Below, in pieces: positions 1,626 to 6,244 of a stretch of DNA of 64,000 bases. Origin of the DNA: Cycloclasticus sp. Lineage in GTDB: Bacteria; Pseudomonadota; Gammaproteobacteria; Methylococcales; Cycloclasticaceae. Position 1 is the first letter of the stretch; every line of letters begins with the position of its first letter. The DNA is taken from the NCBI GenBank assembly GCA_040743155.1, contig JBFLJU010000001.1:124001-188000 (forward strand), written 5' to 3'. The translations under genes were made by a program, and so were the position numbers. The notes under the pieces were generated by a model. That model saw nothing but the letters and a program-made list of their open reading frames with translations. It was not told the origin of the DNA and ran no database searches.

Positions 1626-2039
1626 TTATTTATTTTGATTGCGCATAAAATCTGCGGTATTGAAAAAGGCCTGCATTAATTCATCGTGCATGGGTTTTTC
1701 AATGTTCATTTTATTCAATGCGGTATCCATGCAGTGTAACCACTGATCGCGCTCTTTTGTGCCAACAGAAAAGGGTAAGTGACGTGCGCGTAAACGTGGG
1801 TGGCCGAATTTCTCAATATATAAAGAAGGGCCTCCAAGCCAGCCGCTTAAAAAGAGATAGAGTTTGTCTTCGGCTTCGCTAAGGTCTGGTGCATGCATGT
1901 CGCGTATTGTTTTTACCTCAGTAGTGCTGTCCATCGCTTCGTAAAAATAGTTAACCAGTTGGCGCACACCGACTTCACCGCCTAGCTTCTCATATTGGGT
2001 GAGTTTGTATGTTTGCCCCGGTTTGATGGTTTCGATCAT
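1626..2039 (-). CDS. group II truncated haemoglobin (trHbO type)
   Basis: A 137-residue globin of the 2-on-2 group II family (YjbI/GlbO). Visible marks are the N-terminal [18 protein letters not shown] helix, SGWLGGP, the segment [12 protein letters not shown] that carries the proximal haem histidine, and the tryptophan in [10 protein letters not shown] that is typical of group II. Such proteins bind O2 or NO and are linked to oxidative or nitrosative defence or to O2 delivery. Its start codon overlaps the stop of hemL in an ATGA junction, so translation is probably coupled to haem-precursor synthesis. Confidence 0.92.
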
Positions 2040-3426: not shown

Positions 3427-4194
3427 TTAGCTAGCAGAAATGACAATCCCACGACTGATAAAGTCATTGAGAATGGTTAAGCCGCCGTCAATAATCACAC
3501 TGGGGTCGGGGTGCTGCAGGTCGTCAGCTAGTTTAGACAGTATTAGCTCAGTCGTTCGCTCCGTGTTGTCTGTTAAAGCGACAAGTAATGCATGGGTGAT
3601 TGGCGTGATTTCTAGAAAAGAGGCTCTATTATCGGCATTTCGGTAAACAACGAGATAGGTCGGTTGTTTAGGTGCCTCAGTAGGCAAATTCTCTGGAGAT
3701 ATAGTATGCACCGGGTAGCTATAGGCCAGTGCTAATGCTGTGGAGCTAACCGTTAGAGCTTGAGTTAAAGGGGTTGTGATGGGCGTGGTTTGCTTCTCAT
3801 CTTCAGCGATTGAAACGACTAGCTCAACCCATTCATAGTGGGCCAGTTCAAGGAGAAATGGGAAGTCACTACTGGCGTTAGGGTTGTTTAAGCGTTCGGT
3901 CTGTAAATATTGGATAAACTCTTGTGGAATCTCGGAGAAATACGGGCTGTGGCTCGAATGCTGAGAATAAAAATCTCGACACATTTCTTCCCAGCGTTGT
4001 TCAGAAGAAATTTCTTTTAATACAGGAAATCCATCACTCAGTACATTTGAAATATTAGTGAAGAGAAGGTCGCGGTATATATTTATACGCCGTTCTTCTA
4101 TATCCGTTGGTCTTGGCGATTTTTTAGGATCGCGAATGTACTGGGTGAATTCGTGCTGGGTTTGGATAAAAGAAGGGAGCTTATCCTGTTGCAT
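3427..4194 (-). CDS. bufC: DUF2063 (BufC-type) partner protein of MNIO enzyme
   Basis: A DUF2063 protein, the usual partner of DUF692 enzymes. It probably recognises and presents the precursor peptide to the oxidase. The family N-terminus is seen in LPSFIQTQHEFTQYIRDP, followed by the RINIYRDLLFTNISNVLSDGFPVLKEI helix pair, the FPFLLELAHYEWVEL segment and a C-terminal winged-helix-like domain (HALLVALTDN). The start at 4194 fits the short N-terminus of the family and overlaps the end of bufB by 14 bp. In-frame ATGs at 4212 and 4284 are alternatives, and none has a clear Shine-Dalgarno sequence. It is the third gene of a three-gene operon, bufA-bufB-bufC. Confidence 0.88.
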   Translation of the reverse strand: MQQDKLPSFIQTQHEFTQYIRDPKKSPRPTDIEERRINIYRDLLFTNISNVLSDGFPVLKEISSEQRWEEMCRDFYSQHSSHSPYFSEIPQEFIQYLQTERLNNPNASSDFPFLLELAHYEWVELVVSIAEDEKQTTPITTPLTQALTVSSTALALAYSYPVHTISPENLPTEAPKQPTYLVVYRNADNRASFLEITPITHALLVALTDNTERTTELILSKLADDLQHPDPSVIIDGGLTILNDFISRGIVISAS

Positions 4195-5029
4195 GTTTTT
4201 GCGTAGAGGCATGATGTGATTGAGCTTGATGAATAAGGTCAACCTCTTCGAGTAGGTCGGCCAGAGGTGGAATATTAAAATCACGTTCTAATAATGTAGG
4301 GAGTACACCGAAATGTTCGTAGGCTGTGTCCAGTAACTGCCATACGGGGTCAATGACCTTAGCGCCATGAGAATCAATAATAATGTCTTCAGCTTCGTTA
4401 TAGTGCCCGGCGATATGTGCATAGCTTATGCGGTCACCAGGGAGTTGCTTTAAAAATTCTTCGGCGTTGTACTTATGGTTCACGCTGTTCACGTAAATAT
4501 TGTTAATGTCGAGGAGGAGTTTGCAATCCGCTTTTTTGATAACGGCATTAATGAAATCTATTTCTTCCATTTCTTTGCCCGGCGCGGCGTAGTACGAAGC
4601 GTTTTCTATTGCGATCTGCTCACCCATAATATCTTGTACTTGGATGATTCTATTGGCCACGTAATCAACGGCTTCTTCGGTAAACGGGATGGGCATTAGG
4701 TCATACATATGGCCTCCATCACTGCAGTACGTTAGGTGTTCAGTATAAATTTTGAGTTGGTGGCGTTTTTGAAACGCGCTGACCTCACGTATAAACTCGA
4801 TATCTAATGGGTCTGGGCTACCAATACTGAGGGATAAGCCGTGCGAGACAAAGGGGAATTGTTCTGTTAATGCACGTAATTTTTTGCCGTAGCTGCCGCC
4901 AATACGAATCCAGTTTTCTGGCACGATTTCATAGAAATCAACACTGCTGGGTGGCCGCTCAGATAGCGGGCCAATAAAGGCCCGCCTTAATCCGAGACCG
5001 GCACCATGAACGGGAAAGGTGCTAGTCAT
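4181..5029 (-). CDS. bufB: DUF692 multinuclear non-haem iron oxidase (MNIO), bufferin-modifying
   Basis: A 282-residue TIM-barrel protein of the DUF692/MNIO family. These iron enzymes oxidise cysteine residues of a partner peptide, installing thiooxazole-type heterocycles in bufferins. Expected metal-ligand and active-site segments are all visible: FVSHGLSLSIGS, YTEHLTYCSDGG, AIENASYY, LLLDINNIYVN, YAHIAGHYN, IDSHGAKVIDPVW and LLERDFNIP. The order bufA, bufB, bufC, with a 13 bp gap to the EGKCG-repeat precursor and an overlap with the DUF2063 gene, matches known bufferin operons. The catalytic chemistry is taken from the family and not shown by the sequence itself. Confidence 0.93.
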   Translation of the reverse strand: MTSTFPVHGAGLGLRRAFIGPLSERPPSSVDFYEIVPENWIRIGGSYGKKLRALTEQFPFVSHGLSLSIGSPDPLDIEFIREVSAFQKRHQLKIYTEHLTYCSDGGHMYDLMPIPFTEEAVDYVANRIIQVQDIMGEQIAIENASYYAAPGKEMEEIDFINAVIKKADCKLLLDINNIYVNSVNHKYNAEEFLKQLPGDRISYAHIAGHYNEAEDIIIDSHGAKVIDPVWQLLDTAYEHFGVLPTLLERDFNIPPLADLLEEVDLIHQAQSHHASTQKHATG

Positions 5030-5042
5030 TTTTTATACCGGG

Positions 5043-5420
5043 TTACTTGGCTTCGCCACACTTGCCTTCACCACATTTACCTTCACCGCATTTGCCTTCT
5101 TTAGCTTTTTCAGCTTTAGCTGCAGCTTTTTCAGCGCCACACTTGCCTTCACCGCACTTGCCTTCTTTAGCTTTTTTCGCTGCTTTGTTTGCGCCACATT
5201 TGCCTTCACCGCATTTGCCTTCTTTGGCTTTTGCCGCTGCTTTATTTGCGCCACACTTACCTTCGCCGCATTTGCCTTCAGCAAGAACCATATAACCCGT
5301 TTCAAGCTCAGTTGCGCCAAATGGGCTAACCTCTGCACTTACTGCTGGCGCAAAAGCCATTGAGGTTACAAATGCTGCGCCTAAAGCGGCAACTAATGGT
5401 TTTTTTGTAGAGTTTTTCAT
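5043..5420 (-). CDS. bufA: bufferin-type RiPP precursor with nine EGKCG motifs
   Basis: A 125-residue precursor. Residues 1-29 form a Sec signal peptide (basic start, AALGAAFVTSMAFAPAV core, cleavage after AVSA). A short linker follows (about residues 30-47), then a low-complexity region holding nine EGKCG motifs in groups of 2, 2, 2 and 3, separated by Ala/Lys-rich spacers. The nine cysteines (51, 56, 70, 75, 89, 94, 111, 116, 121) are the only ones in the protein, and every one is within a motif. Family knowledge: bufferins are exported RiPPs whose EGKCG cysteines are converted by the MNIO enzyme into copper-binding heterocycles that protect the periplasm. The ATG is preceded by an AAAGGA ribosome-binding site at good spacing. 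bufB begins 13 bp downstream. The metal bound here is not known. Confidence 0.92.
   Translation of the reverse strand: MKNSTKKPLVAALGAAFVTSMAFAPAVSAEVSPFGATELETGYMVLAEGKCGEGKCGANKAAAKAKEGKCGEGKCGANKAAKKAKEGKCGEGKCGAEKAAAKAEKAKEGKCGEGKCGEGKCGEAK
5055..5279 (-). repeat. tandem repeat inside bufA (EGKCG units)
   Basis: Coding tandem repeat made of two 19-residue units (paired EGKCG plus an Ala/Lys spacer), one 22-residue unit and a terminal triplet of EGKCG. At DNA level the units are about 57 bp and very similar, which suggests recent internal duplication and possible copy-number variation between strains. Confidence 0.9.
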
Positions 5421-5470: not shown

Positions 5471-5573
5471 CTTGCACAAAGTTCCGACAAGAGGCGACCG
5501 GTTCACTATATGCGATTTAATAGACCATGCAAAGTTAAAAAAACTTACAAGTCGGTTAAGGTTTTTGTGCAAG
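5471..5573. promoter_or_regulatory. perfect 10-bp inverted repeat flanking the bufA promoter region
   Basis: CTTGCACAAA at 5471-5480 and its exact reverse complement TTTGTGCAAG at 5564-5573 lie 51-60 and 144-153 bp upstream of the bufA ATG, in the 188-bp gap after nth. The proximal copy overlaps a 13-bp palindrome, GTGCA-TCT-TGCAC, at 5465-5477. Two inverted copies around a promoter suggest a pair of operator sites for a dimeric regulator, possibly metal-responsive. The regulator is unknown. Confidence 0.45.
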
Positions 5574-5608: not shown

Positions 5609-6244
5609 TTAATCACTGGTTTTTTTATTAAACTCACACAAGTCTTCAATCACGCATGAGCCACAGCGCGGTTTGCGAGCAATACAGGTGTATCGGCCAT
5701 GTAGAATTAATAGATGGTGTGCATCAAGTTTGAACGAGGTCGGTACGTGTTTCTCTAGCTGGCGCTCAACCTCTAATACGTTTTTTCCACGGGCAATTTT
5801 GGTGCGATTACTCACTCTGAAAATATGTGTGTCGACAGCGATGGTAGGTACACCGAAAGCTGTATTTAAAACGACATTTGCCGTTTTTCGCCCAACGCCA
5901 GGTAATGCTTCGAGTTCTTCGCGTGTTTTGGGAACGACACTAGCGTGCTTTTCCATCAAAATTTTACAGGTCTTGATGATGTTGCTACCTTTGGTGTTAA
6001 ACAGTCCAATAGTCTTTATATACGCTTTGAGGCCAGCTTCACCAAGGTTAAAAATGGCCTCGGGTGTGTTCGCTACTGGATAAAGTTTGTCGGTCGCTTT
6101 ATTGACGCCTTTATCGGTTGCTTGTGCGGATAGAATGACGGCAATTAGAAGTTCAAAAGGTGACGAGTAATTGAGCTCTGTTTCTGGTTCTGGGATGGCT
6201 TTATTGAGTCGTTCAAAGATTTCAAGGCGTTTGACTTTATTCAT
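5609..6244 (-). CDS. nth: endonuclease III, DNA glycosylase/AP lyase
   Basis: A 211-residue base-excision-repair enzyme that removes oxidised pyrimidines. It has the helix-hairpin-helix LPGVGRKTANVVL with the catalytic lysine, the AVDTHIFRVSNR segment with the catalytic aspartate, and a C-terminal 4Fe-4S cluster motif C-x6-C-x2-C-x5-C (from CIARKPRCGSC onward). Length equals that of E. coli Nth (211). It lies 188 bp upstream of bufA on the same strand. Confidence 0.97.
   Translation of the reverse strand: MNKVKRLEIFERLNKAIPEPETELNYSSPFELLIAVILSAQATDKGVNKATDKLYPVANTPEAIFNLGEAGLKAYIKTIGLFNTKGSNIIKTCKILMEKHASVVPKTREELEALPGVGRKTANVVLNTAFGVPTIAVDTHIFRVSNRTKIARGKNVLEVERQLEKHVPTSFKLDAHHLLILHGRYTCIARKPRCGSCVIEDLCEFNKKTSD

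Follow-up and report, generated by a model that had tools for sequence, protein, structure and literature searches.

What decides when a bacterium makes a cysteine-rich peptide that is likely to bind copper, and what else does it make on the same occasion? The question is posed by a three-gene operon of Cycloclasticus sp., a marine gammaproteobacterium from a group of oil degraders; its genome (assembly GCA_040743155.1, here G000) is one contig of 2.56 Mb. The stretch analyzed, called the window, comprises 64,000 nucleotides of that contig (JBFLJU010000001.1, positions 124,001 to 188,000), and window positions are used below. On its minus strand lie bufA, which encodes a precursor of a ribosomally synthesized and post-translationally modified peptide (RiPP), bufB, which encodes a maturase of the multinuclear nonheme iron-dependent oxidative enzymes (MNIO), and bufC, which encodes a DUF2063 partner. 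The answer I favor, with good confidence, is that this is an hvfABC-type operon for a copper-binding modified peptide, and that a sigma factor of the extracytoplasmic function (ECF) group sets its expression together with that of a second operon, of the BufA2 type, and of msrPQ. The peptide seems an ordinary member of its family; the shared ECF promoter seems the less expected part.

The case for that promoter begins 100 nt before the start codon of bufA, at 5521..5549 on the minus strand, where TGTAAG-N17-GGTCTA reads as a predicted ECF promoter. It is the sole site in the window to match at least 11 of the 12 positions. When the 220 nt upstream of bufA are aligned in 16 sequences of the genus, a single block is strongly conserved, and it includes this site. 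The whole of G000 has exactly three copies of TGTAAG-N17-GGTCTW and none of the reversed pattern. Besides the copy at bufA, one lies 65 nt before the precursor gene of an MNIO cluster of the BufA2 type, and the other stops 3 nt short of the start codon of a gene for an ECF sigma factor. A further site with one mismatch, TGAAAG-N17-GGTCTA, lies 32 nt before msrP, and msrQ comes next. The motif is common, then, to RiPP operons, a periplasmic methionine-sulfoxide reductase and the sigma gene. Because it directly precedes the sigma gene, it is this sigma factor that would read it.

The genes that have the motif in common are recognizable by their products. The sigma factor matches PF04542 and PF08281, and its best NCBIfam model is PRK12517. 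The open reading frame (ORF) that follows its gene encodes 233 residues with one hydrophobic segment, a match to DUF3379 (5.1e-20) and the pattern C-x20-H-x3-C-x2-C; this protein would be the anti-sigma factor. C-x-H-x3-C-x2-C is found in the ORF after the ECF gene at all 17 loci of the genus, while the DUF3379 scan refers to the G000 protein only. MsrP (474.4 bits, cut-off 207) and MsrQ (196.7, cut-off 130) both pass their NCBIfam models. The BufA2 operon (G000:C1:2496522-2500310, locus L002) comprises an 87-residue precursor of the BufA2 family (NF050166, 84.7 bits, cut-off 60), a BufB-type MNIO (MNIO_BufB, 391.1 bits, cut-off 310) and a DUF2063 partner. Elsewhere in the genus the precursor of this second cluster has 112 residues in G015, and in G012 there are two precursor ORFs in tandem.

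Does the motif stay with these genes in related genomes? In 18 genomes of the genus there are 24 exact sites and four of the reversed pattern. Eleven of the 24 precede the ECF gene, nine bufA, one the BufA2 precursor and one msrP, leaving two elsewhere. With at least 11 of 12 positions required, the motif is present at all 16 bufA loci, all 17 ECF loci and 8 of 14 msrP loci. No position out of 183,252 in the flanking DNA of twelve genus loci scores as high, nor does any of 4,488 control windows. Precursors of the HvfA type are found in 16 of the 18 genomes, those lacking one being G001 and G006 (89% and 58% complete). The ECF gene is present in 17 of the 18 and in 2 of the 43 other genomes of the set, and msrP in 14 of the 18.

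Outside the genus the association continues in places. From 82 listed loci of other Gammaproteobacteria, 64 were usable, and at eight of these the region upstream of bufA scores 11 or 12 with either T or G accepted at position 6, a freedom that was chosen after class-wide ECF sites had been seen. Among random segments from the same loci, 6 of 1,280 score as high. The binomial probability is about 8e-10, uncorrected for relatedness, and the site is identical in L058 and L066, which keeps the eight from being fully independent. The loci with the motif include Pseudoalteromonas (three of its eight), Algicola and Alteromonadaceae. Among 369 genomes of the class, 34 have relatives of the ECF protein (E <= 1e-40). 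Thirty of their loci were checked and 22 could be anchored. With spacings of 16 to 18 allowed, 13 of the 22 have a motif scoring at least 10, and in 14 of the 22 the following ORF contains H-x3-C-x2-C. This check has no matched control and is only suggestive of a wider link.

What sort of peptide is made? A preliminary description of the locus, drawn from its letters, called the operon bufferin-type. Its reading as a RiPP operon agrees with the homology found; the label is a loose one. BufA passes the NCBIfam domain model of the HvfA family (NF050137, 89.9 bits, cut-off 19.5) and falls under the cut-off of the HvfA equivalog (NF050188, 69.4 bits, cut-off 95), for which reason it is filed in the broader family and not the strict equivalog. 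BufB passes the HvfB model (NF003818, 429.4 bits, cut-off 360) and misses that of MNIO_BufB (265.2 bits, cut-off 310). BufC passes the HvfC model (NF050145, 285.9 bits, cut-off 142), and profile searches of NCBIfam and Pfam give no BufA2 or DUF2282 match for BufA. By these profile matches the operon is one of the published HvfA/oxazolin/fontiphorin family ("Buf_EGKCG", captophorin), to the exclusion of bufferins proper.

Much is known of that family. Its Buf_EGKCG/oxazolin proteins number about 2,000, with 31 to 506 residues and up to 58 cysteines (PMC12452194). The EGKCG cysteines of FonA (fontiphorin, seven sites) and HvfA (oxazolin) become 5-thiooxazoles (PMC12668002), an assignment made in PMC13419390 as well, while the NCBIfam title keeps oxazolone/thioamide. 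In MmrA five to eight cysteines lose four hydrogens each (PMC12538549). Copper is bound by FonA and by gonococcal gonophorin (PMC12668002). HvfBC modifies full-length HvfA and hardly touches HvfA lacking its signal, so that the signal peptide is leader-like (PMC13419390); by analogy, the signal peptide of BufA is likely also to be a part recognized by the maturase. The preliminary description expected oxidized cysteines and copper binding in BufA, and homology to these characterized relatives is what supports both: the same cysteine chemistry and the same affinity for copper would be expected here.

Several observations weigh against this account, some touching the regulon and some the copper. 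The msrP sites are weaker than the others: 6 of 14 fall below 11 of 12, though for that of G015, among the six, another choice of start gave a score of 10. The second MNIO cluster is found in merely 4 of the 18 genus genomes, where the motif scores 12, 11, 10 and 8, the 8 being the best score upstream of the G015 precursor. In G000, spacings of 15 to 19 with a final A give two sites and one reversed, and allowing one mismatch gives 11 sites, the three exact ones included, against 21 reversed. Near-matches as a set are therefore not enriched. A wider one-mismatch regulon was accordingly rejected, and among the eight one-mismatch sites that of msrP alone was kept, because msrP has the motif elsewhere in the genus. 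An earlier control found 1.5% of windows scoring at least 11; its pool held the sites themselves, and the control of flanking DNA replaced it. The ECF protein, at 191.5 bits, is just under the PRK12517 cut-off of 197, and in each of the ECF genes of G016 and G003 a single stop codon interrupts the matched stretch. Outside the genus the motif is lacking at 56 of the 64 bufA regions and at five of the eight Pseudoalteromonas loci. The link between motif and bufA is thus patchy there, and other regulators must serve those 56. As for copper, related peptides of Microbulbifer were undetected when copper was added, and the protection conferred on E. coli was only slight (PMC12538549); given such weak results, protection from copper cannot be assumed throughout the family.

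The precursor invites a closer look. The bufA gene (5043..5420, minus strand; NF050137 5.8e-26, NF050188 3.2e-19) encodes 125 residues. Read from the sequence, residues 1-29 (5334..5420) are a predicted Sec signal peptide, with a positive start, a hydrophobic core at residues 9-27 by hydropathy, and the junction AVSA/EV. A short conserved segment, SPFGATELETGYMVLA, follows the junction, and after it come two, two, two and three EGKCG motifs with Ala/Lys linkers between (5055..5279; periods of 19, 19 and 22 residues). The nine exact motifs in the arrangement 2-2-2-3 on a predicted exported precursor, all nine cysteines within them, are just as first described. Tandem Repeats Finder reports a repeat of period 57 bp, with 3.1 copies and 83% matches. 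Together with the NF050137 match, this repeat argues that the array is no product of chance. The nine motifs are identical as protein and differ in their codons, on average at 2.06 of 15 nt, and only 2 of the 36 motif pairs are identical in DNA. Selection on the motif is therefore favored over very recent copying. The codons of bufA also suggested the doublet as the duplicated unit, TGC in the first motif and TGT in the second, an idea that fails over the 16 precursors of the genus (first motif 25 TGC and 43 TGT; second 29 TGC and 33 TGT).

Is nine a special number? The preliminary description counted the motif number among the attractions of the peptide, and also suggested comparing copy number among relatives. 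That comparison was run, and the number varies widely. A precursor was found at 66 of 80 related loci and at 27 of 30 in a second set, one of them the window's own copy. The filter yielded none at the other 14 and 3 loci, where the precursor is either missing or truncated or shows fewer than two KCG or no NPF/SPF. With the window's copies (L001 and L085) omitted and the window counted once there are 93 precursors, 80 of them distinct from NPF/SPF onward. These 80 have 2 to 15 cysteines. The genus supplies 16 precursors, counting that of the window and one (L095) truncated where its contig ends; they have 4 to 14, so nine is nothing out of the ordinary. The layout 2-2-2-3 recurs among the 16 in L010.

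The pair is nonetheless the commonest unit. With a five-residue spacing, the 80 precursors contain 370 runs of cysteines: 142 of one, 204 of two, 21 of three, one of four and two of six. Of the 68 runs in the genus, 49 are pairs, 13 are triples and the other 6 are lone cysteines. To that extent the surmise of one domain per motif pair was well placed. The fold is another matter. AlphaFold2, given 28 sequences, offers no confident structure for BufA (predicted local distance difference test 42.8, predicted template modeling score 0.15, no strands), which leaves the domains conjectural. A beta-helix with inward cysteines has been predicted for family members whose repeats are 17 residues long (PMC12452194), against the 19, 19 and 22 of BufA. 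The AlphaFold2 output is too unreliable to favor either one fold per pair or a beta-helix in BufA.

The remainder of the operon is conventional. The bufB gene (4181..5029, minus strand) encodes 282 residues resembling the HvfB maturase (PF05114 1.3e-102; NF003818 5.5e-129; PDB 3bww 1.2e-68), of which H63, H98, E142, N176, N177, H205, H209, D219, H221 and E248 are identical in all 80 relatives. The residues named for site 3 of HvfB are N175, D242 and H244 (PMC13419390); paired by motif, their likely counterparts are N176 or N177, D219 and H221. The bufC gene (3427..4212, or to 4194 if the later start is used; minus strand) encodes DUF2063 joined to NGO1945_C, a RiPP recognition element (RRE) (PF09836 7.3e-26; PF22106 2.1e-24; NF050145 3e-85; PDB 3dee 2.9e-9). 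The order MNIO then DUF2063 had been rightly given, with a range (4181-5420) that left bufC outside. Overlapping ends had been claimed as well. Those of bufB and bufC do overlap, by 32 or 14 nt according to whether bufC starts at the ATG of 4212 or of 4194, and between the stop of bufA and the start of bufB there is a gap of 13 nt.

On the same strand, upstream and downstream, are genes that I take by their resemblance to be nth and hemL. The first (5609-6244) lies close to bufABC at no fewer than 41 of the 80 related loci (L003-L082), a minimum because many loci are cut short, and 29 of the 41 belong to organisms beyond the genus; bufB, bufC and the nth neighbor are present at all 12 genus loci examined (L003-L014). 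The twelve BufB loci nearest to that of the window, with 79-86% identity, carry the titles Cycloclasticus (nine), Piscirickettsiaceae (two) and Methylococcaceae (one). Beside hemL is an ORF of 137 residues (1626-2039, minus strand) that has the look of a truncated hemoglobin and no NCBIfam match at 0.001.

I propose that the parts work as follows. BufA would be made with a Sec signal peptide that doubles as a recognition element. BufC, through its DUF2063-RRE architecture, and the iron enzyme BufB would then oxidize each EGKCG cysteine by four electrons, the product being most likely a 5-thiooxazole. The modified peptide would be exported and bind periplasmic copper(I), acting as a sink with many sites. 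Control would lie with the unlinked ECF sigma factor and its membrane anti-sigma factor of the DUF3379 family, whose C-x20-H-x3-C-x2-C would be a metal or redox motif. Metal or oxidant stress in the periplasm would free the sigma factor, and the freed factor would activate its own gene, bufABC, the BufA2 operon and msrPQ from TGTAAG-N17-GGTCTW promoters.

Wiring of this kind is known, and the present case differs in promoter sequence and in anti-sigma family. The nearest parallel to the peptide is HvfABC(D)/oxazolin of H. influenzae, which has the EGKCG-repeat Sec precursor, the HvfB-type MNIO and the DUF2063-RRE partner (PMC13419390), in a cluster that is under an ECF sigma factor along with methionine-sulfoxide reductases (PMC7907618). 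HvfA has six 5-thiooxazoles, whereas BufA has nine candidate cysteines. The H. influenzae anti-sigma factor is a cytoplasmic protein of 67 residues, while the candidate here is the DUF3379 protein of 233. The H. influenzae cluster also contains DoxX, absent from bufABC; the two DoxX genes of G000 lie elsewhere, near 560 kb and 2,106 kb. A place for DoxX under the shared promoter was considered and dropped (best score 9 at both loci), and one for the other PF00174 gene of the genome is not supported (best score 10 across its 3-kb locus).

FonABC of Fontimonas thermophila and MmrABC (bulbicupramide) of Microbulbifer likewise have EGKCG cassettes with an MNIO and a DUF2063 partner (PMC12668002, PMC12538549), and in FonA there are seven sites, three of them within one peptide (PMC12668002). 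They differ from BufA in spacers and motif number, and the available text of the two papers assigns them no regulator. The bufferins BufA1 and BufA2 of Caulobacter and others are Sec-exported, MNIO-modified and copper-binding too, and the BufA2 cluster of G000 has the same promoter motif, but they are set apart by the profile results above. In Caulobacter a single ECF factor, sigma-F, controls two operons of DUF692, DUF2063 and DUF2282 plus the MsrP-type YedY (PMC3511200). Its promoter is GTAACC-N16-CGAA and its negative regulator the six-span NrsF (PMC3511200), as against TGTAAG-N17-GGTCTW and DUF3379. The regulon predicted here, with one ECF factor for two copper-RiPP operons and periplasmic methionine-sulfoxide repair, would parallel those of sigma-F and of H. 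influenzae RpoE2. DUF3379 is absent from the literature searched, including the main text of the two MNIO surveys, though such a link could still have been published, and the publications found on Cycloclasticus and sigma factors, judged by title, include none on this subject.

The alternative with most in its favor is that the peptide serves mainly against periplasmic oxidants such as hypochlorite and peroxide, with copper secondary and MsrPQ co-regulated by way of oxidative damage. I think this rather unlikely, though it has respectable precedents. In H. influenzae the RpoE2 response to hypochlorous acid takes in the homologous DoxX cluster, msrAB and mtsZ (PMC7907618), and SigE of N. meningitidis controls its own DoxX cluster and msrAB (PMC3240639). 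The Microbulbifer peptide is not copper-induced (PMC12538549), and in Cycloclasticus msrP has the promoter motif. Yet the characterized EGKCG products bind copper (PMC12668002), and Caulobacter sigma-F responds to chromium and cadmium (PMC3511200). The msrP site cannot separate the two roles, because MsrPQ of E. coli is itself copper-induced, through CusSR (PMC9302797). Far less credible is a relic operon, decayed or silent. The mmr products did go undetected under the conditions tried in Microbulbifer (PMC12538549), but a relic should not preserve all nine motifs intact in protein despite differing codons, nor keep bufB, bufC and nth at every genus locus examined and the promoter motif at 16 of 16.

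It is also improbable, if a shade less so, that the conserved block upstream of bufA is an ordinary sigma-70 promoter, TTTGCA-N17-TATAGT (5505..5533, minus strand), and that the match to TGTAAG and GGTCTA is coincidental. This sigma-70-like site overlaps the ECF site and lies in the conserved block, and TATAGT and its surrounding bases are also conserved at the bufA loci of the genus. In a consensus scan it scores 9 of 12, a weak result by itself since the region has 7 such sites against 4.6 in shuffles. TGTAAG-N17-GGTCTW, by contrast, is found again in front of the ECF, BufA2 and msrP genes, with no matching sigma-70 part to be seen there by eye, and the flanking-DNA control never reaches its score. 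TTTGCA-N17-TATAGT may, of course, be a second promoter beside the ECF promoter. By eye, conservation at bufA extends past GGTCTA through CGCATATAGT (5500-5520, minus strand) and is unseen at the other three promoters; this stretch is possibly a second, housekeeping start. A structured RNA in the leader was sought as well, and the window has no Rfam match at gathering thresholds. Two features of the 17-nt spacer were noticed by eye: before the ECF gene it is often an inverted repeat, GATAGC...GCTATC (L115-L147), and before bufA the dyad is another one, AAGTT...AACTT, to which L004 has a matching change. Such dyads would fit a second DNA-binding protein at these sites.

Metal or oxidant stress would then be the signal, and a copper-binding peptide part of the response. 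I consider it quite likely that copper-RiPP production in this lineage, and patchily in other Gammaproteobacteria, has the ECF sigma factor and its DUF3379 membrane partner, with its zinc motif, for a master switch that joins both classes of MNIO peptide to MsrPQ in a third wiring beside those of Caulobacter sigma-F and the Haemophilus/Neisseria ECF factors. As a peptide, BufA adds one member to a family some 2,000 strong (PMC12452194). The predicted regulon is compact and open to test, and would offer a handle for inducing peptides that are made under ill-defined natural conditions. It would also mean that several lineages call up copper-RiPP synthesis jointly with periplasmic methionine repair, through different anti-sigma systems.

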